DNA of 64,000 nt from Pseudarthrobacter psychrotolerans (GTDB lineage Bacteria > Actinomycetota > Actinomycetes > Actinomycetales > Micrococcaceae), in contig NZ_CP047898.1 in assembly GCF_009911795.1 (NCBI RefSeq), positions 1,054,001-1,118,000 of the forward strand, written 5' to 3'. The notes under the pieces were generated by a model. It made no database searches. It was not told where the DNA came from and was given only the letters and a program-made list of their open reading frames with translations. Position 1 is the stretch's first letter. Each line of letters opens with the position of its first letter. Positions 8,509 through 52,626 of this stretch are shown here, in pieces. The position numbers and the translations under genes were made by a program.

Positions 8509-10359
8509 CTACTTCTTCGCCTTGTCCTTGGACTCGTCGGTAGTAAGCGCAGCGATGAAGGCTTCCTGGGGAACCTCAACGCGGCCCACCATCTTCATCC
8601 GCTTTTTGCCTTCCTTCTGCTTCTCCAGCAGTTTGCGCTTCCGCGAAATGTCGCCGCCGTAGCACTTGGCCAGGACGTCCTTGCGGATGGCGCGGATGCT
8701 TTCCCGGGCGATGATCCTGGAGCCGATGGCAGCCTGGATGGGCACCTCGAACTGCTGCCGGGGAATCAGCTCGCGCAGTTTGCCGGTCATCATCACACCG
8801 TAGGCGTAGGCCTTCTCGCGGTGCGTGATGGCGGAGAAGGCATCCACCTGTTCGCCCTGGAGCATGATGTCCACCTTGACCAGGTCGGCCACCTGCTCGC
8901 CGTCTGCCTTCCAGTCCAGCGAGCCGTAGCCCCGGGTCTTGGATTTGAGGATGTCAAAGAAATCGAACACGATCTCAGCGAGCGGCAGCCGGTACCGGAT
9001 TTCGACCCTGTCCTCTGACAGGTAGTCCATGCCGCCGATGACGCCGCGGCGGCTCTGGCAGAGTTCCATGATGGCGCCCACAAACTCATTCGGTGCCAGG
9101 ATGGTGGCAGCCACCATCGGCTCGCGGACCTCGGCGATCTTGCCGGAAGGGTATTCGCTGGGGTTGGTCACGTGGACCACTTTCTTGTCCTCCAGCGTTA
9201 CCTCGTACTCCACGTTGGGGCAGTGGAGATCAGGTCAAGATTGTATTCGCGCTCGAGCCGCTCCCTGGTGATTTCCAGGTGGAGCAGGCCGAGGAAACCG
9301 ACGCGGAAGCCGAAGCCGAGCGCAGCCGACGTTTCGGGCTCATAGACCAGCGCCGCATCGTTGAGCATCAGCTTCTCCAGCGCATCGCGGAGTACCGGAT
9401 AGTCCGTGCCATCCAGCGGATACAGGCCGGAGAAGACCATCGGCTTGGCATCCGCATAGCCGGGAAGGGACTGCGTGGCAGGCTTGGCAAGGTTGGTGAC
9501 GGTGTCGCCAACCTTGGACAGGCGGACGTCCTTCACACCGGTGATGAGGTAGCCCACTTCGCCCACACCGAGGCCTTTGGAAGGGGTGGGCTCCGGGGAG
9601 CTCACCCCGATCTCGAGAAGTTCGTGGGTGGCGCGGGTGGACATCATCTGGATGCGTTCACGGGGTGGAGCATGCCGTCAACAACGCGGACGTAGGTGAC
9701 CACACCGCGGTACGTGTCGTAGACCGAGTCGAAGATCATGGCGCGCGCGGGGGCATTCGGGTCACCCACGGGGGCCGGCAGGTCACGGACGATCTTGTCC
9801 AGGAGTACCTCGACGCCCATGCCGGTCTTGCCGGAGACGCGGAGCACGTCGTCGGGGTCGCCGCCGATCAGGCTGGCGAGTTCGGCCGCGTACTTCTCGG
9901 GCTGGGCTGCCGGGAGGTCGATCTTGTTCAGCACCGGGATGATAGTGAGGTTGTTTTCCATCGCCAGGTACAGGTTCGCGAGGGTCTGGGCCTCGATGCC
10001 CTGCGCCGCGTCAACGAGCAGCACTGCACCTTCGCAGGCGGCCAGCGAACGGGACACCTCGTAGGTGAAGTCCACGTGGCCGGGCGTGTCGATCATGTTC
10101 AGCGCGTAGCTGGTGCCGTCGAGCTCCCAGGGCATCCGGACCGCCTGGGACTTAATCGTGATGCCGCGTTCGCGCTCAATGTCCATGCGATCCAGGTACT
10201 GGGCCTTCATATCGCGGGACTTAACCACCCCGGTGTACTGCAGCATGCGGTCGGCCAAGGTGGACTTGCCGTGGTCAATGTGCGCGATGATGCAGAAATT
10301 CCGAATGATGGCCGGATCTGTCGCGGCGGGCACCGGGCGGTGCGGGCCATGGGAGACAC
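8509..10359 (-). CDS. lepA: Elongation factor 4 (LepA; frame broken two or three times)
   Basis: A ribosome-associated GTPase, about 617 residues when rebuilt. G1 (AHIDHGKST), G3 (DTPGHVDF) and G4 (NKID) are present, and the unique LepA C-terminal domain ends the protein. The frame breaks at a G run 9662-9665 (HP to [12 protein letters not shown]) and again at 9217-9220 (LISTAPN to [11 protein letters not shown]), each one base short. A third loss near 10335-10337 is likely: the GTG at 10359, with AAGGA upstream, encodes VSPMART, which must shift to join [15 protein letters not shown]. All three are probably errors. Confidence 0.85.
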
Positions 10360-15536: not shown

Positions 15537-16562
15537 CTACGTGGAAACTGCGGGGAGCTCCGGTTCCGGGCTCCGCACAGTTGCGCTGCTCTCCCCCACG
15601 ATCACCGCGAGCACGCCAAGTCCGGCGTGGGCGGCCAGGACGGCGGGGAGGGAGCTGATCTGGGCTGGCGGACAGCTTGGCAGGGCTGCGGACAGCCTGG
15701 CTGCCAAAGCTTCTGCCTCGGCCGGATTCCCGAAGTGGTGGACGGCGAGGCGGGCCTGGCCGTCAGGGCGCGACGCGGCGTCACCGGCGGCCAGCTCCTC
15801 GAGCCGGGCAACAGCTTTGGCCGCTGATCTGACCTTTTCCAGCGGCACGATCTTTCCGTCGTCGACGGCAAGGATGGGTTTGATGGCGAACATGGTCCCC
15901 AGCAGCGAGGCGGCCGCGCCGATCCGCCCGCCCCGGCGGAGCTGTTCAAGGCTGGGCACGTAGAAGTAGACCTTGGTGCGCGCGAACTGCTCCGCCGCCG
16001 CGGCGGCTACAGCTGTGGCGTCACTCCCTGCCGCGGCTGCTGCCACCGCGGCCTGCACGCCCATGCCCAGCGCCATGCCCACCGTGCCGGAGTCGAGGAT
16101 TTCCACAGGGATGGTCACCCGGCTGGCCGCCAGCCGGGCCGCATCCGCGGTCCCGGACAAGCCGCCGGAAATGTGGATGGAGACCACGCTTTCATAGCCC
16201 AGGCGTTCGGCGGCCAGGAACACCTGTTCAAACTGTCCGGGTGACGGGCGGGACGTTTTGACCGACGTGCCACTGGCTAGTGCCAGCGCAATGGTTTCGG
16301 TGATGTCGTCTTCACCCTCGCCGTAGATTTCCGCGCCCACCATAACGGGCATCGGGATGACAGTCAGTCGTCCGTCACCGGCACACGAATGCACCCAGTC
16401 GGCCGGCAGCGCGGAGGCAGAGTCGGTCACCACTGCGGTACGGACGACGACGGCGGGCGCCGCCGGGACTGGCGACGGTGGCGTGCCCTGGCGCGGCGCG
16501 GGACGGAGGGCAGCCAGACGCTCCCGAAGCCAGAGCCACGCGGCGGCGTCACGGTCGGGCAA
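15537..16562 (-). CDS. DegV family fatty-acid-binding protein
   Basis: A 341-residue DegV-fold protein. The family signature at the domain start (VVTDSASALPADW, near residue 45), the TSRPSPGQF loop and the conserved HISGGLSGTADAARLAA segment are clear. Bacterial DegV (FakB-type) proteins carry fatty acids to a FakA kinase; no FakA gene is in view. About 35 residues precede the usual N-terminus, so a later start is possible. It lies between leuS and comEA on the same strand. Confidence 0.85.
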   Translation of the reverse strand: MPDRDAAAWLWLRERLAALRPAPRQGTPPSPVPAAPAVVVRTAVVTDSASALPADWVHSCAGDGRLTVIPMPVMVGAEIYGEGEDDITETIALALASGTSVKTSRPSPGQFEQVFLAAERLGYESVVSIHISGGLSGTADAARLAASRVTIPVEILDSGTVGMALGMGVQAAVAAAAAGSDATAVAAAAAEQFARTKVYFYVPSLEQLRRGGRIGAAASLLGTMFAIKPILAVDDGKIVPLEKVRSAAKAVARLEELAAGDAASRPDGQARLAVHHFGNPAEAEALAARLSAALPSCPPAQISSLPAVLAAHAGLGVLAVIVGESSATVRSPEPELPAVST

Positions 16563-16619
16563 GAGCGCCTCCTGGTTTAGGGCCGGCCGCCGGTTGGGCC
16601 CGGCGGCCGGTGCCCCGGG

Positions 16620-19151
16620 CTAGGCCGGGACGATGTTGACCAGTTTAGGCGCTCGCACGATCACCGTGCGGATGCCGCGGCCGTCAAGCGCGCGCTGGAC
16701 GTTTTCGCTGGCCAGCGCCAGTTGGCGCAGTTCGTCTTCGCCGATCCCGGGCGAGACTTCGAGGCGGTCACGGACCTTGCCCTGGACCTGGACTACGGCG
16801 GTGACGGTCTCCTGGACCAGCAGCGCGTCGTCGTGCACCGGCCAGCCGGCGTTCGCCACGGACGCCGGGTGACCCAGGACGTTCCACATGTCCTCCGCGG
16901 TGTAGGGCGCGAAGAGGCTCAGGATGACGGCAACGGCTTCCGCGGCCTCCCGGACGGCGGGATCCGCCCCGCCGGCCCCGGCGGCTGCATCTATGGTTTT
17001 GCGTGTCGCATTGACCAGCTCCATCAGCTTGGCCACCACCACGTTGAACTTGTTGGTGTCCAGCAGCGCGGCGGCGTCAGCGATGGTGCGGTGCGTGACA
17101 GAGCGCAGGGCCCGGTCACCGGCGGTCACATCGGCACCAGGCTCACTGGTGACGTCCTGCGCAATGCGCCAGGCGCGGGCCAGGAACTTTGCGGAGCCCG
17201 ACGGCGAAACGTCCGCCCAGTCGACGTCGTCCTCCGGCGGGGACGCGAAGATCATGGTCAGGCGCACAGCGTCCACGCCGTACTTGTCCAGCTGCTCACT
17301 GAGGTCTACGCCGTTGCCCAGAGACTTGCTCATGGCCTTGCCGCCGTTGAGGACCTGGCCCTGGTTCAGCAGCGCACTGAACGGTTCGTCGGCGTCGATC
17401 ATGCCGAGGTCGTGGATGACCTTGGTAAAGAACCGGGCGTACAGCAGGTGCAGGATGGCGTGCTCCACGCCGCCCACATACTGCCCCACGGGCATCCACT
17501 CGTTGATCTTCGCCGGATCAAACGGGCCCTCGGTGTACTGCGGCGAGACGAACCGCAGGAAGTACCAGGACGAATCCACAAAGGTGTCCATGGTGTCGGT
17601 ATCGCGCTTGGCCGGCGCGTGGCAGTTGGGGCAGTCAACGTTTACCCATGCTTCAGCGGCAGCCAGCGGTGACGTGCCCTTCGGGGACAGGTCCTCGCCG
17701 CGCAGGTCCGCCGGCAGCCTGACAGGCAACTGCTCGTCGGGCACAGGAACCTCGCCGCAGGCAGGGCAGTGGATGATCGGGATGGGCGTCCCCCAGAACC
17801 GCTGGCGGCTCAGCAGCCAGTCACGCAGGCGGAAGTTGACGAACTTCTCGCCGGTGCCCTGCTTTTCGAGGATGTCAATGGCAGCCGGAATGGCCTCTGC
17901 CTTCGGCAGCCCATCGAGGATGCCTGAGTTGATCAGGGTGCCCTCGCCCGAGGTGGCCTTGCCGGAAACCGTGGGATCCTCTTCACCGGTGTCCAGCACT
18001 GCGCGGACGGGCAGGTCGAACGTCTTGGCAAAGTCGAGGTCGCGCTGGTCGTGCGCCGGGACGGCCATGATGGCGCCCGTGCCGTAGTCGGCCAGGACGT
18101 AGTCAGCCGCCCAGACCGGCAGTTTTTCGCCGTTCAGCGGGTTGACGGCATAGCGGCCGGTGAAGACGCCCGTCTTTTCACGCTCGGTGGACTGGCGTTC
18201 GATTTCGGTCAGCGCCTTGACCTGTTCGCGGTAGGCATCCAGGGCGGCGGCGTGTTCGTCCGTGACAAGTTCGACGGCGATCGGCGCGTCGGCCGCGACA
18301 ACAAAGAACGTGGCACCGTACAGGGTGTCCGGGCGGGTGGTGAAGACGGTGACGTCCTTGGCGGGCTTGCCGCCGTCGGCTTCGATCACAAAGTTGACGT
18401 GGGCACCTTCGGAGCGGCCGATCCAGTTCTTCTGCATCGCCAGCACACGCTCAGGCCAGTGGCCGCGCAGTTCGTCCATGTCATCGAGCAGCCGGTCAGC
18501 GTACTCGGTGATCTTGAAGTACCACTGGTTCAGGGACTTCTTGGTGACCGGAGTGCCGCAGCGTTCGCAGGCGCCGTTGACCACCTGTTCATTGGCCAGG
18601 ACGGTCTGGTCCTTGGGGCACCAGTTGACCGGGGAATCCTTGCGGTACGCCAGGCCCCGCTCGTAGAAGCGCTTGAACAGCCACTGGGTCCAGCGGTAGT
18701 ACTCGGGGTCCGAGGTGTGCACCCGCCGGGACCAGTCCGCCGAGATCGCGTAACGCTTGAACGACGCCGCCTGGGTGTCGATGTTGGCGTACGTCCACTC
18801 GCTTGGGTGGGCGTTGCGCTTGATGGCGGCGTTTTCCGCCGGCAGACCGAAGGAGTCCCAGCCGATCGGGTGCAGGACGTCGAAGCCCTTTTGCCGCAGG
18901 TAGCGGGCCACAACATCGCCCATGGCAAAGGCCTCGGCGTGGCCCATGTGCAGGTCACCCGAGGGGTACGGGAACATGTCCAGCACGTAGCGGCGCTCGC
19001 GGGAACCATCATCCACCGGTGTGAAAACCTTAAGGTCTTCCCACACCTGCGGCCATTTGGCCTCCATTGCCGCGAAGCTGTAGGCACCCTCTTCGGGTGT
19101 TTCCGCCGCCACTGCTGCTGTTCCGGTCTCTGTCTCCGGCTGAACGCTCAC
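16620..19151 (-). CDS. leuS: Leucine--tRNA ligase
   Basis: A class I aminoacyl-tRNA synthetase, 843 residues from the GTG at 19151, which has a GAGGG ribosome site upstream. The HIGH-type motif is [13 protein letters not shown] (near residue 73), the CP1 editing domain is present ([16 protein letters not shown] onward), and the KMSKS motif reads [11 protein letters not shown] zinc-ribbon-like [18 protein letters not shown] is also visible. The frame stays open to 19328, but that part overlaps a leader peptide and terminator, so it is not coding here. Expression is probably controlled by leucine attenuation. Confidence 0.95.
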
Positions 19152-44312: not shown

Positions 44313-45158
44313 CTACGTCCCTTGGAGGGCTTTCGGCAGTGCCGTCATGGAAAGTGCCTCGTCGAGGACTTTGCCGAAGTTCGCCGCATCGTGGGCGAAC
44401 CGGCCCAGGAAGAGTCCGGAGACGCCGTCGAGCGCGGGGAGCAACCCTGGTTTGGCGGACCCGCCATAGATGACCGGCAGCTCCCCCAACGCGCTGCCTG
44501 CCTCGTGCGAATGGGCAGCCAGCAGCGTCCGGAGTGAACGCACGACGGCGGCGACGTAGCCTGCGCCGGCGGGCTCCGCTGCGCCAATGGCCCAGACCGG
44601 TTCGTAGGCGATCACGAGCCGTGATACCAGGGCCCAGTCGCCGCCGACCGCCTCATGGATCTGCTGATGGACAAACGCAGCCGCACTGCTGGCTCCGGTC
44701 CCGTTTTTTTCATGGCGGGTTTCCTCGCCCACGCACAGCAGCGGGGTGATGCCGGCGTCGTCGGCTGCCCTGACCTTCCGGGCGATCATGGAGCTGTCCT
44801 CGCCGAAATGCCGCCGCCGTTCGGCGTGGCCGATCTCCACGATGGCTACCCCCAGCTCCGCCAGGAGTGACGGCGACACCTCACCCGTCCACGGGCCGTC
44901 CGCCCAGCCGCAGTTCTGGGCGCCAAGCAGAAGCGGTGATCCTGCGAGGACGCTGCCGGCGGCCGGAAGGACCGGGAACGATGGGATCACAAACGGGACT
45001 ACCCGCCCGGCCGCAAGGGCCGGACGGGAGTCCACTTCGTGCTGTATGCGGGCGAGCCAGTCCAGGCAGTCCCGGTACCCCATATACATTTTGGTGCTGA
45101 CGCCGACGTAGCGGATCTCCGGGATGCCGCCTTGGTCAGCGCTGCTGCGTTCAGTCAT
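44313..45158 (-). CDS. Triose-phosphate isomerase family protein (probable erythrulose-phosphate isomerase)
   Basis: A TIM-fold isomerase of 281 residues. The catalytic His (VEIGHAERRRHFGE) and Glu (IAYEPVWAIG) are present and so is the Lys, but the classical NWKMN motif reads STKMYMG, replacing the conserved Asn. It is the last gene of a catabolic operon with an RpiB-type isomerase and a DhaK-type kinase, not beside gapA and pgk. LerI/EryH-type TIM paralogues interconvert L-erythrulose 1-phosphate and D-erythrulose 4-phosphate; I infer the same role here. A glycolytic TIM is less likely. Confidence 0.8.
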   Translation of the reverse strand: MTERSSADQGGIPEIRYVGVSTKMYMGYRDCLDWLARIQHEVDSRPALAAGRVVPFVIPSFPVLPAAGSVLAGSPLLLGAQNCGWADGPWTGEVSPSLLAELGVAIVEIGHAERRRHFGEDSSMIARKVRAADDAGITPLLCVGEETRHEKNGTGASSAAAFVHQQIHEAVGGDWALVSRLVIAYEPVWAIGAAEPAGAGYVAAVVRSLRTLLAAHSHEAGSALGELPVIYGGSAKPGLLPALDGVSGLFLGRFAHDAANFGKVLDEALSMTALPKALQGT

Positions 45159-45167
45159 GGTGTCCGG

Positions 45168-46526
45168 TCACTTGTTGTCGAGCAGATCGTCCGCCTTGTT
45201 GCGGAACCTCTTCGTGGCGTACATCATGATGGCCGCCACGAACGGAAGCACGCCCAAGGCGTACACGCCCATGGTGCCGGTGTCCGACGCGGTGACCTGG
45301 TTGACCGTGGTCCGCAGGATGGGAGCCACGAAGCCGCCCAGGTTACCCAGCGAGTTGATCAGGCCGATGCCCGCAGCGGCCGCCGTTCCGGTGAGGAACG
45401 CCGTCGGGTACGACCAGGCGATGGGACCGATCGAGAGGAAGCTGCACACCGCGAGGGTGATGAAGATGATGCCCAGCACCGGGAGGTGGTTGGAGCCCGC
45501 CCAGGCGGAGCCGAAGATGCACAGGCCGGTGGAGATAAAGAGGCCGGTGCCCCAGACCCGGCGGCGGACGATGGTGTTGGCCGCTTTGCCGATGAAGTAG
45601 CACGCGAAGATGCCGAAGAACCACGGGATGGCGGCCAGCAGGCCCACTTCGATACCCACCTTCTGCCCGGTGAGCTGTGCCACCTGCTGCGGCAGGTAGA
45701 ACGTCACGCCGTACACGGCAATCTGGAGGCAGAAGTAGATGGCGGTGAAGTACCAGACCTTGCGGTTCTTCATGGCGGCGAGGACACCACGGGGGCCGTC
45801 CTTTTCCTTGACCCCGTCTTCGAGGGCCATAACGTCCAGAAGCGCCTTCTTCTCGTCCTTGTCCAGGAATTTCGCGTCCTGCGGGGTGTTGATGAGGAAG
45901 AAGTAGGCGGCAATACCGGCGAGTACCGCCAGCATGCCTTCAATGAAGAACATAACCTGCCAGCCGGCCACGCCGGGAACCTGGTCGCCGATGTTGATGA
46001 GCCACCCGGACAGCGGAGCGCCCATCATCTGGGAGAACGGCTGGGCCAGGTAGAAGATGGCGAACATCTTCACCCGGACCTTGTTGGGGAACCAGGCGGC
46101 CAGGAACATGATGACGCCCGGGAACAGGCCGGCCTCGGTCACACCGAGCAGGAAGCGCAGGATGATGAAGGACGTCTCACCCTGGACGAAGGCGAAGCAG
46201 GCCGAGACGATGCCCCACGTGATGGCGATGCGGGCCAGCCACATCTTGGCACCGAACTTGGTCAGCAGCAGGTTGGAGGGGATCTCGAACAGTGCGTAGC
46301 CGATGAAGAAGATACCGGCGCCGAGGGCATATGCGCCGGCGGTGATGCCCCTGTCCACTTCCAGTGCTGCCTCGGCGAAGCCCACGTTGGTGCGGTCCAG
46401 GAACGCCACGACATACAGGATGACGAGCATCGGCATCAGCCGGAAGGAGGCTTTGGAGATCGCCGATTTGAGGACCGGCGAATCCAGTAACTCCTTGGTG
46501 GCGTTTGTTCCAGTGGTGACAGTCAT
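45168..46526 (-). CDS. MFS transporter, anion:cation symporter type
   Basis: A 12-helix secondary transporter of 452 residues. The early VILYVVAFLDRTNVGFAEAAL and the LLGVTEAGLFPGVIMFLAAWFP segment are typical of the ACS family (hexuronate, glucarate, tartrate and phthalate carriers). This points to an acidic substrate such as a sugar acid. GAGGAG stands just before its ATG. A 30-residue membrane peptide gene lies 52 bases upstream and the TIM-like isomerase gene follows after 9 bases. Confidence 0.9.
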   Translation of the reverse strand: MTVTTGTNATKELLDSPVLKSAISKASFRLMPMLVILYVVAFLDRTNVGFAEAALEVDRGITAGAYALGAGIFFIGYALFEIPSNLLLTKFGAKMWLARIAITWGIVSACFAFVQGETSFIILRFLLGVTEAGLFPGVIMFLAAWFPNKVRVKMFAIFYLAQPFSQMMGAPLSGWLINIGDQVPGVAGWQVMFFIEGMLAVLAGIAAYFFLINTPQDAKFLDKDEKKALLDVMALEDGVKEKDGPRGVLAAMKNRKVWYFTAIYFCLQIAVYGVTFYLPQQVAQLTGQKVGIEVGLLAAIPWFFGIFACYFIGKAANTIVRRRVWGTGLFISTGLCIFGSAWAGSNHLPVLGIIFITLAVCSFLSIGPIAWSYPTAFLTGTAAAAGIGLINSLGNLGGFVAPILRTTVNQVTASDTGTMGVYALGVLPFVAAIMMYATKRFRNKADDLLDNK

Positions 46527-46578
46527 TCAAACTCCTCGTTGAGTAAGCAGGTGAGCAAATCAGTGGAAGGTGGAGCGA

Positions 46579-46671
46579 TTAGAGCGAGAATGCGATGAGT
46601 ATTGCGCCGGCCAGGCAGGCAAACACGCCCACGGCCAGGTAGATTCGGCGTTCCTTGGTCCAGGAGCCCAT
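46579..46671 (-). CDS. Small single-helix membrane protein (possible MFS transporter small subunit)
   Basis: A 30-residue open frame, MGSWTKERRIYLAVGVFACL then AGAILIAFSL, with a basic N-terminus and one hydrophobic helix. It has a strong ribosome site (GGAAGGA, 6 bases before the ATG) and lies 11 bases after the SDR gene and just before the MFS gene. Position and signals suggest a real gene co-expressed with the transporter. Similar tiny proteins are encoded beside some MFS carriers. The function is unknown. Confidence 0.72.
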   Translation of the reverse strand: MGSWTKERRIYLAVGVFACLAGAILIAFSL

Positions 46672-46682
46672 GGTGGTCCTTC

Positions 46683-47450
46683 CTAGTGCATGTAGAGTCC
46701 GCCATCCACGTTCAGCGTCTGGCCGGAGATGTATCCGGCCTCCTCGCTGATGAGGAAGGCGATGGCTGCTGCGATGTCGCGGGTGGAACCGACGCGGTTG
46801 ACCACCAGGTCCTTGGTGAGCTCGTCTTTGCGTTCCTGGCTGAGGGTGCCGCCCATGATGTCCGTGTCGATGGGGCCGGGGGAAATGGCGTTGACCGTGA
46901 TGTCGTACTCCCCCAGTTCGCGGGCGGTGGCGCGGGTCAGGCCGATGACCCCGGCCTTGGCCGCCGAGTACGGCGTCTTGGAGAAGGTGCCGCCGCCGCG
47001 CTGCGCGGAGACGGAAGAAATGTTCACGATGCGTCCGATCCGGTTCTTCGCCATGGATTCGGCGACGCGGCGGGTGGCGTAATGGACACCGTTGAGGTTG
47101 ATGCTCATGACGCGGTCCCATTCCGCGGCGTCCAGTTCAAGGTACGGAACGGGTGAGCTGACGCCGGCCACGTTGGCCAGCGCGACGACCTGCGGCAACT
47201 CTGCTTCGATCGAGTCGATGGCTGCGCGGACGGAGGCTTCGTTGCCGATGTTGGCGCCGACGCCGTGGGCTTTCACGCCGTACCGGGCGGCAATTTCCTT
47301 GGCGGTGGCCTGGGATTGGGCGTCATCCAGGTCGATGATGCCGATGTTCCAACCCTGGGCGGCAAGGTAGCCGGCCGTGGCGCGGCCGATACCGCGTTCG
47401 GAGACGGCGCCGGTGATGATTGCCGTGCGTTCGGAGGGGAAAGTGCTCAT
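46683..47450 (-). CDS. SDR family oxidoreductase
   Basis: A classical short-chain dehydrogenase of 255 residues. The NAD(P) motif is TGAVSERGIGRATA (Gly-rich, near residue 14), with Asp in IIDLDD suggesting NAD preference. The catalytic Ser (NISSVSAQ) and YSAAK are present, and the C-terminus VDGGLYMH is typical. In this operon it could oxidise a tetritol or other polyol to a ketose, as D-threitol dehydrogenase does. The substrate is an inference from context. A GGAG site precedes its ATG. Confidence 0.87.
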   Translation of the reverse strand: MSTFPSERTAIITGAVSERGIGRATAGYLAAQGWNIGIIDLDDAQSQATAKEIAARYGVKAHGVGANIGNEASVRAAIDSIEAELPQVVALANVAGVSSPVPYLELDAAEWDRVMSINLNGVHYATRRVAESMAKNRIGRIVNISSVSAQRGGGTFSKTPYSAAKAGVIGLTRATARELGEYDITVNAISPGPIDTDIMGGTLSQERKDELTKDLVVNRVGSTRDIAAAIAFLISEEAGYISGQTLNVDGGLYMH

Positions 47451-47461
47451 GGAAATGCTCC

Positions 47462-48430
47462 TTAGTTGATGGGGGCCGGGCCGAGCTCGTCGATGAGCTT
47501 CTGCATGGCCACGTAGGCCCTGTTGCGGTAGGCGATGAGTTCCGGGGTGCGTTCGGCCGGGACGTTGAGGAAGCCCGCGCCGGTCTTGGTGCCGAGTTTG
47601 CCTGCCTCCACCAGGTCACTCAGGATCTTGGGCGTGGCGAAGCGTTCCGGGAATTCGGTCTGCAGGGACTTGTAGCAGAAGTTGTAGACGTCCAGGCCGG
47701 CCATGTCCGCGATGGCAAACGGACCGAAGAACGGCAGGCGGAAGCCGAAGGTGGTGCGGACCAGGGTGTCCACGTCCTCGGCGGTAGCGATTCCCTGCTC
47801 CACGAGCTGCGCTGCCTCGTGGAAGAGGGCATACTGCAGGCGGTTCAGGACGAATCCGGTGACGTCCTTGACCACCGCGGTCTGCTTGTTGGCGGCATGG
47901 ACCAGATCCCGGACGGCACCGATGGTGGCGGCCGAAGTGCCTGCATGCGGGATGATCTCCACGCCCGGGATAAACGGGGACGGGTTCGAGAAGTGCACGC
48001 CCAGGAACCGCTCCGGGTTGGCGACCGGCTCGGACAGTTCCGCGATGGAGATGGTTGACGTGTTCGAGCCGATGACGGCGTCCGGCCGGGCGCCGGCGCT
48101 GATCCGGGCAAGCGTCTGGTGCTTGATGGCGATGACTTCGGGTACGGCTTCTTCGATGAAGTCGGCATCCGCCACGGCTTCCTCGATGTCCTTGGCGGCC
48201 CACAGATTCTGCTTGAGGATGGCGGTTGAACCCTCGGGGAACAGGCCGTCGGCCACGAACTGGTCCGATTCGGCCAGCAGCCGCTCATAGTTCTTCTGCG
48301 CCACCTCGGCGGAGACATCGGCCAGGGCAACGCGGGCTCCGCCCAGTGCCAGGACCTGGGCAATACCGCCGCCCATGTAGCCCGATCCGACGACGGCGAT
48401 CTTGCGTGCGCTGTTAGGTGTTGTGGTCAT
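47462..48430 (-). CDS. 3-hydroxyacyl-CoA dehydrogenase family protein (probable sugar-acid 3-dehydrogenase)
   Basis: A 322-residue enzyme with an N-terminal NAD-binding Rossmann fold (AVVGSGYMGGGIAQVLALGG), Asp in ALADVS, the SNTSTISIAEL segment, the catalytic His in GVHFSNPSPF and a helical C-terminal domain. It is the size of L-gulonate 3-dehydrogenase (lambda-crystallin), which oxidises the C3 hydroxyl of a sugar acid. No beta-oxidation genes are nearby, while kinases and isomerases of sugars are. I infer a hydroxy-acid substrate rather than an acyl-CoA. Confidence 0.85.
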   Translation of the reverse strand: MTTTPNSARKIAVVGSGYMGGGIAQVLALGGARVALADVSAEVAQKNYERLLAESDQFVADGLFPEGSTAILKQNLWAAKDIEEAVADADFIEEAVPEVIAIKHQTLARISAGARPDAVIGSNTSTISIAELSEPVANPERFLGVHFSNPSPFIPGVEIIPHAGTSAATIGAVRDLVHAANKQTAVVKDVTGFVLNRLQYALFHEAAQLVEQGIATAEDVDTLVRTTFGFRLPFFGPFAIADMAGLDVYNFCYKSLQTEFPERFATPKILSDLVEAGKLGTKTGAGFLNVPAERTPELIAYRNRAYVAMQKLIDELGPAPIN

Positions 48431-48432
48431 GA

Positions 48433-48915
48433 TCAGACTGCCTTCGTGTATTCGGGCTCATAGGAGCAGATGGCGTCAACCTTGCCGGCGGACGCGGAGC
48501 TTTCATCAAAGCGGTACTCGAGCCACTCGCCCACGAGCTTCTTGGCGAGCTCCAGGCCGATGACCCGCTGGCCAAGTGTGAGGACCTGGGCGTTGTTGCT
48601 GAGGACAGAGCGTTCCACGGAGTAGCTGTCGTGGGCCGTTACGGCCCGGATTCCGGGGACCTTGTTGGCCGCGATGGCCACGCCCAGCCCAGTTCCGCAG
48701 ATAAGGAGCGCACGGTCGGCGTCGCCGTCCGCCACTTTACGGGCAGCATTGACCGCGACGTGCGGGTAGGCGGTGGCATCGTTGGCCCCAACGCCGATGT
48801 CCAGCACCGAAGCGACGCGGCTGTCGGCTGTGAGCAGCGCCTTCAGTGCTTCCTTGTACTCGACGCCGGCCTCATCGTTGCCGATGACGATGCGCCAACC
48901 TGCGTGGGTGTTCAT
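48433..48915 (-). CDS. RpiB/LacA/LacB family sugar-phosphate isomerase
   Basis: A 160-residue isomerase of the RpiB fold. The N-terminal [16 protein letters not shown], the active Cys/Thr loop [22 protein letters not shown] and the [21 protein letters not shown] region are intact. In erythritol and threitol pathways an RpiB paralogue (EryI/DerI type) turns D-erythrulose 4-phosphate into D-erythrose 4-phosphate; I infer that here. Ribose 5-phosphate isomerase is the alternative. It overlaps the kinase gene by 4 bases. Confidence 0.85.
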
Positions 48916-50705
48916 GTCGTTGCTCCTTTTCCGGCTGCGGAGGCCAGTTCAGAATGGTCCAGCCGCGGATCCGTGAAGCCTGGCTCCGCAGGCCCGGCGT
49001 GGATGTATGCGGCAATCCGTTCGGCGATCAGTCCAAAGGAGACCGCGCCGGGGTCGGGGTGCCCGAGGCTTTTTTCGGCCAGCGGACGGGCGCGGCCCTT
49101 GAGCGGGCGCAGTTCCGCTGTCTTCGCGGCCGCCGCCCGGGCAGCGACGGCGGCCGCGGTGAGAGACCCAGCCAGGGAGGTGCCGCCGTCGAACTCCCGG
49201 AGGAAGGCATCCCGGAACGGCAGGAGCGCGTCCACCATGGTCTTGTCGCCCGGCTCGGCCTTCCCAAGCTCCGTAATGGCGCCCACGAAAGCGGTCACGG
49301 CGGCAGCCGCGTCCTCGTCGCCGTAGGTTTCCCGGTTGCCCATGGCCAGTCCTGACGCGATGACCGCAGATCCCCACAGTGCACCTGAGGTTCCGCCGGC
49401 CCGTTCGCTCCAGGCCTCGCCGGCGGCTTCAAGCACCCGTCCCACCGAAGCGCCGGCCGTTGCCGCCTGCGCGGCGGCGTCGACTGCTGCTTCCACACCC
49501 CGGCGCATGCCGATGCCGTGGTCGCCGTCGCCCGCAATGGCGTCCAGGTTGCCGAGTTCTTCTTCGTGTTCGACGACGACGTCCCGCACTTGGGCGAGCA
49601 CGGCGGCTGTCTGCCGGCCCAGGTCCGCTGCTGCCGCCGTCGTCGTTTCTTCCACTTCACCGGCGACGGCGTCTTCCGGCCGTGCCGCCTCGCGGCGGGC
49701 ATGCGGGGCAAGGTTGCCCTTGCGGTAGGCCGGTGAGTCTGCGGGGTCGGCCCAGTACTGTTCGAGTTCCTCATCCAGCCAAAGCAGTGTGAGGGAGAGC
49801 CCGGACATGTCCAGGCTCGTGACCAGCTCTCCGCATTCCGGTTCAACCACGGTCAGGCCGGCCACGGTGAGCAGCTTTTCAATCTTGCCGAACAGGAGGA
49901 AGAGTTCGTCGTACTTGACGGTACCCAGGCCGTTGACAATGGCCACCACACGGTTTCCGGGGTGATCCGGGGTGTCTGCGAGCAGCCGCGAGACCAGCAG
50001 TTCGGCGAGTGCCGACGCCGTGGGCATGGGATGTTCCGAGATGCCCGGTTCCCCGTGGATGCCCAGGCCCAGGGACATTTGGCCCGCGGGGACACGGAAC
50101 AGCGGCGCTACGGCGCCCGGGAGGGTGCAGCCGTCGAAGGCCACGCCCAGGGAACGCGTGCGGTGATTGGCCTTGATGGCGAGCCGTTCCACCTCGTCCA
50201 GGCTCAGGCCCGCTTCAGCTGCGGCACCGGCAATCTTGAACACCGTGAGGTCGCCGGCGATGCCGCGGCGCTTCCCTATCTGGTCCAATGGCGCACTGGC
50301 GATGTCGTCCGTGACGGTGACCGTGCGGGTCTCGATGCCCTCGGCGTTCAGGCGCAGCTGCGCCTGGCCGAAATGAAGGACGTCGCCCGCGTAGTTGCCG
50401 TAGCTCAGCAGCACTCCCCCGCCGGCGTTTGCCGCTTTGGCCACGCGGTAGATCTGCCCGGCGGCCGGTGAAGCGAACATGTTTCCGCAGGCGGAGGCGG
50501 TTGCCAACCCCGGCCCTACAAGGCCGGCGAAGGCCGGGTAGTGTCCGGAGCCGCCTCCGACGACGACTGCAACCTGGCCGGCGGGCACCTCAGTCGAGCG
50601 GACCACGCCGCCGTTGACGCGGGCGACGTAGCCACGGTTGGCAGCCACAAAGCCGTCCAGCGCCTCATCCGCGAAATCAGCGGGATTGTCGAAGATCCGG
50701 GTCAT
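48912..50705 (-). CDS. Dihydroxyacetone kinase family protein (DhaK-DhaL fusion)
   Basis: A 597-residue ATP-dependent kinase. The DhaK domain has [15 protein letters not shown] near residue 50 and the substrate-linking His in [11 protein letters not shown] (near 218). The DhaL domain (from about residue 370) has the magnesium/ATP motif [15 protein letters not shown]. It lacks PTS components, so ATP is the donor. In M. smegmatis such fusions phosphorylate L- or D-erythrulose as well as dihydroxyacetone. Its two isomerase partners here favour erythrulose. Confidence 0.88.
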
Positions 50706-50713
50706 GGCTGTTC

Positions 50714-51715
50714 CTACACTCCTGCGAGTTCCGCGGCGGGCTGTTGCCGCCCCTGGGACACCTGGCTCCGGCCCAGGGAGTAGCCGTCCTGCTTTGGCAG
50801 GACGTGGCGGCGGAGGTATTCCTGGTTGCGTGCCGTGACGCTGAGGCCGTCTCCGCCGTAGTGCTCGGCACAGATGATGCCCTGGTAGCCGGCGGCGAGT
50901 GCAACCTTGAAGGCTTCGCGGTAGTTGATGAGGCCGCTCTCCATTGGGGCGGGCATGGTGATGTAGCTGTCACGGGCCACGTCCTCGTCCCGGATGTAGT
51001 TCTTCATGTGCCAGTAGTTGGAGTACGGCATGGTGTTGGCTACCATTTCGCGCCAGTCCTCGATGGGCCGGTGCAGGCGGATCAGGTTGCCAAGGTCCGG
51101 GTTGAGCCCCACATTGGCAAGGCCGATGTCCTGCACCAGCTGTACCGAGGAGTCCGCCGTGCCGAGGTAGGTATCCTCGTACATTTCGAGGGACAGCAGG
51201 ATGCCTGCCTCTGCGGCGTGACGGCCCAGTTCCCGCAGGCGGGCGACAGCGTTGGCCCAGCTTTCCTGGTCGCCCACCGGGTCCTTGTATCCCTCAACGG
51301 TCCAGAACCACAGCTGCTTCTGCTGCTCAGGGGTAATGGCCTGGTGCAGTCCGACGGAGACAACTTCGCAGCCAAGCTCGGCCGCCGCGTCGATGGTCCG
51401 GTGGCTGTAGGCGAGGTTGTCTGCCCAGTCCGTCTCGTGGATCACGCTGCGGCGGATGGCCGAAATGACAGGGATGCCGATGCCCACATCTTCTGCGGTC
51501 TGCTTGAACTCGGCGAGCCGGTCCTTGCTCAGATCGCCGGGACGGACCCAGCTGTCGGTCAGGTCAGCGTTGGCAAAGCCGGCTTCCTTGACCTCCGTCA
51601 GGACTTCCGCCCAACTGGACGCATCGGCGTCGTTGATCTGCGTGCCCTGGGCGTCGATTCCCGGAAACTGCAGCAGCGCTGCAGTGATGGGCCAATTCTC
51701 AGCTGTGTAAGCCAC
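50714..51715 (-). CDS. Sugar phosphate isomerase/epimerase-like TIM-barrel protein (possible 3-oxo sugar-acid decarboxylase)
   Basis: A 333-residue xylose-isomerase-like TIM barrel (AP endonuclease 2 superfamily). Likely metal ligands are Glu in LSLEMYEDTY, Asp in GLNPDLGNL, His in NYWHMKNY and Glu/His in GIICAEHYGGDG. It is the first gene of the operon, 8 bases before the kinase gene. The same superfamily includes 3-oxo-isoapionate decarboxylase, which forms L-erythrulose. Paired with the hydroxy-acid dehydrogenase, this one may decarboxylate a 3-oxo sugar acid; an epimerase role is the alternative. Confidence 0.78.
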   Translation of the reverse strand: MAYTAENWPITAALLQFPGIDAQGTQINDADASSWAEVLTEVKEAGFANADLTDSWVRPGDLSKDRLAEFKQTAEDVGIGIPVISAIRRSVIHETDWADNLAYSHRTIDAAAELGCEVVSVGLHQAITPEQQKQLWFWTVEGYKDPVGDQESWANAVARLRELGRHAAEAGILLSLEMYEDTYLGTADSSVQLVQDIGLANVGLNPDLGNLIRLHRPIEDWREMVANTMPYSNYWHMKNYIRDEDVARDSYITMPAPMESGLINYREAFKVALAAGYQGIICAEHYGGDGLSVTARNQEYLRRHVLPKQDGYSLGRSQVSQGRQQPAAELAGV

Positions 51716-51742
51716 GATGCTTCACTCCTTCGTAATCCTCTT

Positions 51743-51752
51743 TCCTATAGGA
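51743..51752. promoter_or_regulatory. Palindromic operator upstream of the catabolic operon
   Basis: TCCTATAGGA is a perfect 10-bp palindrome 28 bases upstream of the TIM-barrel gene. The identical palindrome lies just before the GntR gene, each flanked by GATCT/AGATC, so it is the likely binding site of that regulator. Confidence 0.72.
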
Positions 51753-51804
51753 TCTACTATCAAAAGGGAGTTGTCAAGATCACATCCTTGCGAGGTCTTC
51801 CCAA

Positions 51805-51864
51805 ATGTAGGTCGCATTCAATGTCGTCATGGGCGCTCATGACGACATTAAATGCGGCCTACAT
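51805..51864. repeat. Long inverted repeat downstream of the GntR gene
   Basis: Two 27-base arms (ATGTAGGTCGCATTC... and its complement ...GCGGCCTACAT) differ at two positions and enclose a 6-base loop. The minus-strand transcript of the GntR gene would fold it right after the stop at 51875 and then read TTT, so it can act as a terminator. Its length suggests a dispersed palindromic element. Confidence 0.75.
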
Positions 51865-51874
51865 GGGGCTGGGC

Positions 51875-52609
51875 CTAGCTTTCCGGGGCGTCCGCAATAG
51901 CCCGGGAACGGACCTTACGGATATGGTCCGCCATGGCTGCCGCTGCTTTGTCCGGATCGCCGGTGGTAACGGCATCCAGCACTGCCTGGTGTTCCGCGAT
52001 GGCCTGCTCGGCATCCGTAATGCCTACGCCGCCGAAGAGGCGGAACCGTTGGACCTGTCCCCCGAGGGCTGAGTAAGCGGCTTCCATAAACTGGTTTCCG
52101 GTCTGGCGCGCAATCAGCTGGTGGAACCGCTCGTCCGCTTCGAGATAGTCCTTGAACTCGGCAAACGAAGGTCCCCGCGGTGCGGCTTTCAAGTCCTCGA
52201 CGGCCTGCTCCAGTTCGGCCAGGCCGTGCTGGTTGATGCGTTCACAGGCCAGCCGGGCGTTGACGGGCTCGATTGCAAGCCGCGCCTCCATCAGTTCCGC
52301 AAAATCCTCCTGCGTAAAAACGGGAGCCACTCGGTAGCCTTTGAGCGCCACCCTCCGGACCATACCTGTGTGCTCAAGCCGCGCCAGGGCCTCGCGGACG
52401 GGGGTGGGCGAAACGTCCAGCTCGCGGGCCGTCCCGTCAATGCTGACCACCGCGCCGGGTGACAGCCGGCCATCCATAAGGGAGGCCAGGAGCTCCGCAT
52501 AAACGTGGTCGGCCAGCACCTCGCGGCTAACCGCGCGGCCCGTTCTGCCGGGGCCGTTCTGGATTTCTGGCATTCTGCCGGTGCGGGGGCCTTTGGACGC
52601 GTTTTGCAT
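51875..52609 (-). CDS. GntR family transcriptional regulator (FCD domain)
   Basis: A 244-residue repressor-type regulator. It has an N-terminal winged helix (DHVYAELLASLMDGRLSPGAVVSIDGTARELDVSPTPVREALARLEHTGMV, about residues 34-84) and an all-helical FCD ligand domain (EARLAIEPVNARLAC, then DERFHQLIARQTGN and EHQAVLDAV). FCD members usually sense organic acids or sugar acids. A TCCTATAGGA palindrome lies 7 bases before its ATG, so autoregulation is likely. It is encoded upstream of the catabolic operon on the same strand. Confidence 0.92.
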   Translation of the reverse strand: MQNASKGPRTGRMPEIQNGPGRTGRAVSREVLADHVYAELLASLMDGRLSPGAVVSIDGTARELDVSPTPVREALARLEHTGMVRRVALKGYRVAPVFTQEDFAELMEARLAIEPVNARLACERINQHGLAELEQAVEDLKAAPRGPSFAEFKDYLEADERFHQLIARQTGNQFMEAAYSALGGQVQRFRLFGGVGITDAEQAIAEHQAVLDAVTTGDPDKAAAAMADHIRKVRSRAIADAPES

Positions 52610-52616
52610 AGTCAGA

Positions 52617-52626
52617 TCCTATAGGA
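52617..52626. promoter_or_regulatory. Palindromic operator upstream of the GntR gene
   Basis: TCCTATAGGA lies 7 bases before the GntR ATG and overlaps its probable ribosome site (AGGA). It is identical to the palindrome at 51743-51752 before the operon. Confidence 0.72.

Follow-up and report, generated by a model that had tools for sequence, protein, structure and literature searches.

Organization of the locus

We analysed a window of 64,000 nucleotides (nt) from the genome of Pseudarthrobacter psychrotolerans (contig NZ_CP047898.1, positions 1,054,001 to 1,118,000), in which a compact operon is predicted to convert a sugar acid into erythrose 4-phosphate by way of erythrulose. The operon comprises eight minus-strand genes at window positions 44313-51715, a count that includes an open reading frame (ORF) of 30 amino acids (aa), and successive genes are spaced from -4 to +52 nt apart. 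An earlier reading made from the sequence alone had described eight tightly packed genes with a GntR/FCD regulator, and this arrangement is borne out, with all genes on the minus strand. In the order of transcription the locus encodes the GntR/FCD regulator, a TIM barrel, a DhaK-DhaL kinase, an RpiB-like isomerase, an enzyme of the 3-hydroxyacyl-CoA dehydrogenase fold (HADH), a short-chain dehydrogenase/reductase (SDR), the 30-aa ORF, a carrier of the major facilitator superfamily (MFS) and an isomerase resembling triosephosphate isomerase (TIM-like). The gap between the regulator and the barrel gene is 159 nt, and the later gaps are, in order, 8, -4, 2, 11, 11, 52 and 9 nt. The features are as follows.

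52617-52626, unstranded: candidate operator TCCTATAGGA, lying 7 nt before the GntR start codon
51875-52609, minus strand: GntR/FCD regulator (PF00392 and PF07729 above cut-off)
51790-51879, unstranded: imperfect inverted repeat with long arms (45 nt, 78% complementary) that overlaps the GntR gene at its end
51743-51752, unstranded: candidate operator TCCTATAGGA, lying 27 nt before the TIM-barrel start codon
50714-51715, minus strand: xylose-isomerase-like TIM barrel (PF01261), proposed 3-oxo-aldonate decarboxylase
48912-50705, minus strand: DhaK-DhaL kinase (PF02733 and PF02734), proposed erythrulose kinase
48433-48915, minus strand: RpiB-like isomerase (TIGR02133), proposed D-erythrulose-4-phosphate isomerase
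47462-48430, minus strand: HADH (PF02737 and PF00725), proposed sugar-acid 3-dehydrogenase
46683-47450, minus strand: SDR, FabG-like; a role as second acid dehydrogenase is a guess
46579-46671, minus strand: small ORF of 30 aa that lies between the SDR and MFS genes and includes a hydrophobic stretch (read from the sequence)
45168-46526, minus strand: MFS transporter, galactonate-transporter-like (PF07690; TIGR00893 below cut-off)
44313-45158, minus strand: TIM-like isomerase (PF00121), proposed L-erythrulose-1-phosphate isomerase

Conservation of the barrel-dehydrogenase pair

With the barrel as query, 495 candidate loci were confirmed, and the 80 that ranked highest were examined (loci and genomes of our set carry L and G numbers). 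An HADH gene lies within 7 kb of the barrel gene in 77 of these 80 loci, and in the remaining three (L035, L040, L101) the contig ends 0.2-1.3 kb beyond the end of the barrel. Co-occurrence was also counted in 396 genomes of the order, with thresholds of E <= 1e-60 for the barrel and E <= 1e-70 for HADH. The barrel is present in 98 of these genomes and HADH in 83; 79 of the 98 barrel genomes also encode HADH and 79 of the 83 HADH genomes also encode the barrel, with the barrel alone in 19 genomes and HADH alone in four. Where both are present, the two genes are at most 5 kb apart in 67 genomes and at most 30 kb apart in 76. Two properties of these counts weaken the case they make: at most five candidates were scored per genome, which means that some absences may be misses, and the Fisher value for the pairing ignores shared ancestry and is not a fair probability. 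In a sample of 396 genomes from the phylum, the barrel (E <= 1e-30) occurs in four, and HADH proteins of at least 55% identity occur in exactly the same four. Weaker HADH relatives, of at most 45% identity, occur in 23 other genomes. The HADH relatives at L145, L146 and L147 (G408, G302, G250), which are 43-45% identical, lie in other contexts, judged by eye to include sugar ABC genes as well as metallo-hydrolase-like and iron-alcohol-dehydrogenase-like genes.

The genes flanking the operon were searched for at 85 loci (the 80 plus five others; stretches of up to about 21 kb, E <= 1e-15). All six flanking genes (aroB, efp, nusB, PrsW-like, pyrR and pyrB) are found at seven loci, the downstream three at one locus, and none at 77; therefore the cassette sits at different genomic places. 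Members of the barrel family are also present in 94 plasmid records, mostly from Sinorhizobium. We conclude that the operon is real and conserved, and that the barrel-HADH neighborhood is not a product of chance.

A number of variant clusters (L084-L087, L089-L092, L094) have no relatives of the SDR, MFS and TIM-like proteins. Upstream of four of them (L084, L085, L086, L089) we observed, partly by eye, a levoglucosan-dehydrogenase-like Gfo/Idh/MocA gene, a ThuA-like gene and a second Gfo/Idh/MocA gene; the levoglucosan-dehydrogenase-like match for L089 scored 364 bits against a cut-off of 650.

The dehydrogenase of the 3-hydroxyacyl-CoA dehydrogenase fold

The domain composition of HADH (PF02737 and PF00725) raises the question of whether it is a genuine acyl-CoA enzyme, in which case the operon would handle a CoA-linked compound. 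Its best solved relative is 4om8, a pyridine-carboxylate (FHMPC 5-) dehydrogenase, at 177 bits. The next is 3mog, a probable 3-hydroxybutyryl-CoA dehydrogenase, at 149 bits, and from there down most solved relatives are 3-hydroxyacyl-CoA dehydrogenases; lambda-crystallin (3ado) is matched at 112 bits (E 3.8e-31). On the model of FHMPC dehydrogenase itself HADH scores 222 bits, below the cut-off of 500. The genome encodes five other full-length PF02737 proteins, which are presumed acyl-CoA enzymes, although they were not annotated one by one. In a midpoint-rooted tree, whose support values were not examined, HADH and its orthologues stand apart from all five of these paralogues. Residue D61 of HADH (in ADGLF, residues 60-64) is K or R in all five paralogues and is never basic among 14 aligned sequences of the HADH clade; the basic residue at this position in acyl-CoA enzymes presumably binds CoA. 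The loop before the GP motif (FGFRLPFFGP) is longer in HADH, and likewise in 4om8 and some other relatives. CoA ligase, thiolase and hydratase are absent among the operon proteins scanned. An acyl-CoA function of HADH was rejected on the grounds of the non-basic D61 and the separate clade, and we regard it as extremely improbable.

The sequence-only reading had named close similarity to characterised acyl-CoA enzymes as a result that would overturn it; HADH instead has 4om8 as its best match and occupies its own branch. That reading had also called a first step by an HADH-type enzyme unusual, a remark that needs to be softened, since lambda-crystallin, which we take to be L-gulonate 3-dehydrogenase, belongs to the same superfamily.

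Exchange of the first dehydrogenase and the permease

We inspected 17 of the 19 barrel genomes that have no HADH, leaving out G758 and G793. An HIBADH-like gene lies near the barrel in nine of them (G451, G466, G520, G557, G683, G731, G794, G812 and G813), with 36-62% identity to the Streptomyces HIBADH, and a PdxA-like gene lies near it in four (G575, G669, G697 and G774). Of the dehydrogenase families searched for, the SDR alone accompanies the barrel in G602 and G626. The barrel of G458 is on a 5-kb contig, and in G057 one barrel has a 2-hydroxyacid-dehydrogenase gene close by and the other an HIBADH relative of 31% identity. PdxA differs in fold from HADH and HIBADH, which have a common Rossmann fold. 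The same exchange is seen in plasmid records: PdxA, a TTT permease, barrel and kinase are found together in Sinorhizobium, Pararhizobium and Shinella (L151 with our own gene calls), and HIBADH, a GntP-like permease, barrel, kinase and RpiB in Streptomyces. Exclusivity is not absolute, as two dehydrogenase types occur within 7 kb of the barrel at 5 of 112 loci. The permeases beside barrel-dehydrogenase pairs are likewise of several families, namely MFS, GntP (L137 by Pfam; L165 by similarity) and TTT. Gene content, packing, the motif at two sites upstream (see below), co-occurrence and dehydrogenase exchange are all read from the sequences themselves.

Some barrel-HADH clusters are found near glycosidase genes (GH39 in L141, arabinosylfuranosidase in L183), and in L182 a gluconolactonase-family gene adjoins HADH. 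These three loci suggest that the acid can also arise inside the cell from a sugar.

A second, apionate-type cluster in the same genome

The genome contains a second cluster at about C1:830-840 kb. It encodes a lactonase-like piece that aligns with part of the D-apionate lactonase model NF049900 (173 bits against a cut-off of 750), a PF16896 dehydrogenase that spans two frames (matches at C1:830683-831146) and a TIM barrel. It also encodes paralogues of four proteins from the window, namely TIM-like (42% identity), RpiB (69%), DhaK-DhaL (56%) and MFS (39%). We take the PF16896 dehydrogenase to be ApnO and the barrel to be OiaC, and we read the cluster as a probable route from D-apionate to L-erythrulose.

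The possibility that the window operon is itself a D-apionate operon was examined and set aside: it has neither ApnL nor a PF16896 dehydrogenase, both of which occur in the other cluster, and the ApnL model NF049900 found no match among the eight proteins scanned. Since the second cluster already holds the apionate-type genes, the operon in the window probably serves a different acid, perhaps an L-pentonate, as a route that runs in parallel.

Within L150 (G000:C1:822000-841900; positions 8660-9330 and 16068-18118) the PF16896 gene is divided between two frames, as the ApnL-like gene appears to be, only the first piece of the latter having been matched to a model. A Dak1 match at C1:3778686-3779620 is likewise in two pieces. 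The split genes and the split match may be either real frameshifts or assembly errors.

Function of the TIM barrel

The closest solved chain to the barrel is 5tnv (E 4.5e-89). In an alignment of 14 sequences, the window's among them and reaching down to 40% identity, residues E177, D207, H236 and E284 do not vary, and this pattern presumably forms the metal site of the superfamily. An hhalign comparison of the window barrel with that of the apionate-type cluster gave a probability of 93.9%, with a weak alignment across the same motifs. The most economical reading is that the barrel is a decarboxylase acting on a 3-oxo acid. One could also suppose that the dehydrogenase already decarboxylates its product and that the barrel is an epimerase or isomerase (for instance of erythrulose) which sets the chirality for the TIM-like enzyme. 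The barrel does belong to the AP_endonuc_2 superfamily and weakly matches D-psicose and L-ribulose 3-epimerases, and PdxA-type dehydrogenases are said to decarboxylate unaided. However, the barrel is kept alongside three dehydrogenase families, it is also present in genomes with a single TIM-family protein, and it has a remote relative in the apionate-type cluster; we therefore consider an epimerase unlikely.

The kinase, the isomerases and the SDR

The DhaK-DhaL kinase passes the model PRK14479 (750 vs 492) and fails the glycerone-kinase model dak_ATP (353 vs 575). The RpiB-like protein passes the ribose-5-phosphate isomerase model TIGR02133 (199 vs 168) and fails the D-erythrulose-4-phosphate isomerase model NF051858 (153.5 vs 240). 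Among the best 60 of 182 matches, the TIM-like protein scores 141 bits against 3s6d ("putative triosephosphate isomerase"), 126 against 11ef ("L-erythrulose-1-phosphate isomerase") and 123 against the triosephosphate isomerase 1b9b; it falls below the listed triosephosphate-isomerase cut-offs (TIGR00419, 77 vs 131). The 11ef match and the recurrence of the trio beside a D-apionate-lactonase-like gene are consistent with the earlier assignment of these three proteins to an erythrulose module.

In a rival reading, a C4 acid (threonate or erythronate) would be oxidised and decarboxylated to dihydroxyacetone, with DhaK-DhaL and the TIM-like enzyme leading on to triose phosphates. The kinase belongs to the dihydroxyacetone kinase family, the HIBADH relatives resemble L-threonate dehydrogenase, and triosephosphate isomerases match the TIM-like protein almost as well as 11ef does. 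A triosephosphate isomerase here would, however, duplicate the TIM-family copy that the genome has at C1:922141, and RpiB would have no role, yet it is found within 7 kb of the barrel at 23 of 32 further loci; such a route is very unlikely. A C6 acid (e.g. L-gulonate) has to be considered as well: modelled on the mammalian lambda-crystallin route, HADH would oxidise C3, decarboxylation would give L-xylulose, and the kinase and isomerases would act on C5 ketose phosphates. This would suit both the match of HADH to 3ado, the L-gulonate 3-dehydrogenase lambda-crystallin, and the RpiB score on TIGR02133. It agrees less well with the match of the TIM-like protein to 11ef, slim as its margin is, and with the fact that the trio is common to the apionate-type cluster, whose product would be L-erythrulose. 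We consider a C6 acid quite unlikely.

Two further TIM-family proteins are encoded in the genome, one within the other cluster at C1:832340 and one at C1:922141. Of 80 barrel genomes, 18 have a single TIM-family protein (E <= 1e-12), and HADH is present in 11 of these 18. The LerI-like (TIM-like) gene suggests that the product here may be L-erythrulose. Some clusters have no LerI-like gene and 18 of the 80 genomes have one TIM-family protein only; therefore, other operons may make D-erythrulose. A rule by which a LerI-like gene marks L-acids holds only in part, given the 11 of 61 checked HADH genomes with a single TIM-family protein.

The closest solved relatives of the SDR are FabG-like enzymes, and it passes the cut-off of none among the 25 models listed. 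Of 80 genomes, 39 have a relative (E <= 1e-55) no more than 10 kb from the barrel, namely 31 of the 61 that encode HADH and 8 of the 19 that do not. The sequence-only reading had the SDR feeding a tetritol into the pathway, which is not supported: it scores 157 bits on the GolD/DthD tetritol-dehydrogenase model against a cut-off of 286, EltD-type dehydrogenases not having been tested. The other elements of the pathway then proposed, i.e. the dehydrogenase-barrel pair, the anion-type permeases and the erythrulose module, are upheld by indirect argument. Our guess is that the SDR, too, is a 3-dehydrogenase and takes an acid that differs in configuration; it may instead be an aldose dehydrogenase or a tetritol dehydrogenase.

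Proposed pathway

We propose that the locus directs the breakdown of a sugar acid under the control of GntR; the MFS carrier would import this acid. HADH would oxidise the C3 hydroxyl of the acid with NAD, and the TIM barrel, probably metal-dependent, would decarboxylate the 3-oxo acid to erythrulose and CO2. The DhaK-DhaL kinase would convert erythrulose to erythrulose 1-phosphate, from which the TIM-like and RpiB-like isomerases would give D-erythrulose 4-phosphate and then D-erythrose 4-phosphate, an entry into central metabolism; the SDR might serve as a second dehydrogenase, for an acid of different configuration. Taken as a whole, the sequence from sugar acid through 3-oxo acid and erythrulose to erythrose 4-phosphate is, on balance, probable, every reaction, substrate and stereochemistry in it being a prediction from sequence. 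The acid is most likely a C5 compound that would give L-erythrulose, e.g. an L-pentonate (L-xylonate, L-lyxonate, L-arabinonate or L-ribonate).

Several observations count against this scheme. The barrel's remote solved matches are D-psicose and L-ribulose 3-epimerases (E 0.018-0.021), and its identity to the apionate-type cluster barrel is 21% over 118 residues. The HIBADH relatives score highest as L-threonate dehydrogenase (217-220 bits, under the cut-off of 350), an enzyme that acts at C2. The RpiB-like protein fits the ribose-5-phosphate isomerase model and fails that of the proposed activity, the advantage of 11ef over 1b9b is a slim 3 bits, and 11 of the 61 HADH genomes lack a second TIM-family protein. 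Finally, the glycosidase genes at L141 and L183 suggest that the input of barrel-HADH clusters is not always an imported acid.

A more general scheme can be drawn from the exchanges described above, in which an aldonate is converted to a 3-oxo-aldonate, then to a tetrulose and CO2, and finally to erythrose 4-phosphate. One family of barrel decarboxylases would be combined with a first enzyme of the HADH, HIBADH, PdxA or possibly SDR type and with exchangeable permeases, and a LerI-like enzyme would be kept for L-erythrulose and dropped for D-erythrulose. We offer this generalization tentatively, at slightly short of even confidence. No description of the operon or of the general scheme was found, for the operon among the titles and opening lines of abstracts listed from the open-access literature, which does not amount to absence in print. 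If correct, the scheme would assign functions to families named generically (the "sugar phosphate isomerase/epimerase" barrel and the "dihydroxyacetone kinase family" kinase), it would add another way, besides the known one, of turning sugar acids into erythrose 4-phosphate, a precursor of aromatic amino acids, and it would make concrete assays possible.

Regulation and other features

A search for exact matches to TCCTATAGGA in the 5.17-Mb genome found two copies, one before the GntR gene and one before the operon; a control search with the pattern read backwards found one occurrence. The copy on the barrel side sits within a 19-base pattern (three mismatches allowed) with a chance expectation of 0.01 per window. 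The core CCTATAGG is present in 78 of 90 upstream regions (200 nt each, the window's included), and in relatives it is found again a short distance ahead of the GntR start (40 of 62 further sites listed). The TCCTATAGGA pair is thus a putative GntR operator, and we infer a regulon that would consist of the window operon alone. The hairpin at 51790-51879 was dropped as an operator candidate: its arm pattern occurs in 4 of the 90 upstream regions, the window's included, and some relatives have hairpins of differing sequence at about the same place. For these reasons we leave it unexplained. Scans for sigma-70 promoters and terminators gave nothing above chance.

The top NCBIfam model for the MFS carrier is TIGR00893 (267 bits, under its cut-off of 395). 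The 30-aa ORF is possibly a small membrane partner of this carrier; a similar ORF was observed at 51 of 104 loci searched, 24 of those being short stretches of about 4 kb.

Comparison with known systems

The D-apionate route reportedly proceeds through ApnL, ApnO and OiaC, followed by erythrulose kinase and isomerases, with L-erythrulose as product. The window operon has in common with it an MFS carrier, a dehydrogenase, a barrel of the same superfamily and the kinase-TIM-like-RpiB trio. It differs in having no lactonase gene, in the replacement of the PF16896 dehydrogenase by HADH and in its distant barrel (the 21% over 118 residues noted above).

Lambda-crystallin and FHMPC 5-dehydrogenase are enzymes of the HADH superfamily that act on carboxylic acids without CoA. 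FHMPC 5-dehydrogenase (4om8) shares the longer loop before GP with the window HADH, which nonetheless remains below the cut-off of the FHMPC model.

LerK, LerI and DerI function in the catabolism of tetritols (threitol and erythritol) to D-erythrose 4-phosphate (PMC10733421), in Mycolicibacterium smegmatis according to PMC12780249. The window operon would share with this pathway the steps of the kinase and of the LerI-like and RpiB-like isomerases that end in D-erythrose 4-phosphate. The window operon differs in its additional HADH and barrel, in its galactonate-transporter-like MFS carrier and in an SDR that falls below the GolD/DthD cut-off, and its input is probably not a tetritol.

In deoxyribonate oxidation, carbon-carbon cleavage follows the oxidation of a sugar acid to a keto acid, which the authors propose to be a 3-keto acid, and the operon has MFS and lactonase genes (PMC6365646). 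Initial oxidation of a sugar acid to a keto acid would thus be common to both systems; the window operon differs in that it would use HADH and a TIM barrel, and no CoA.

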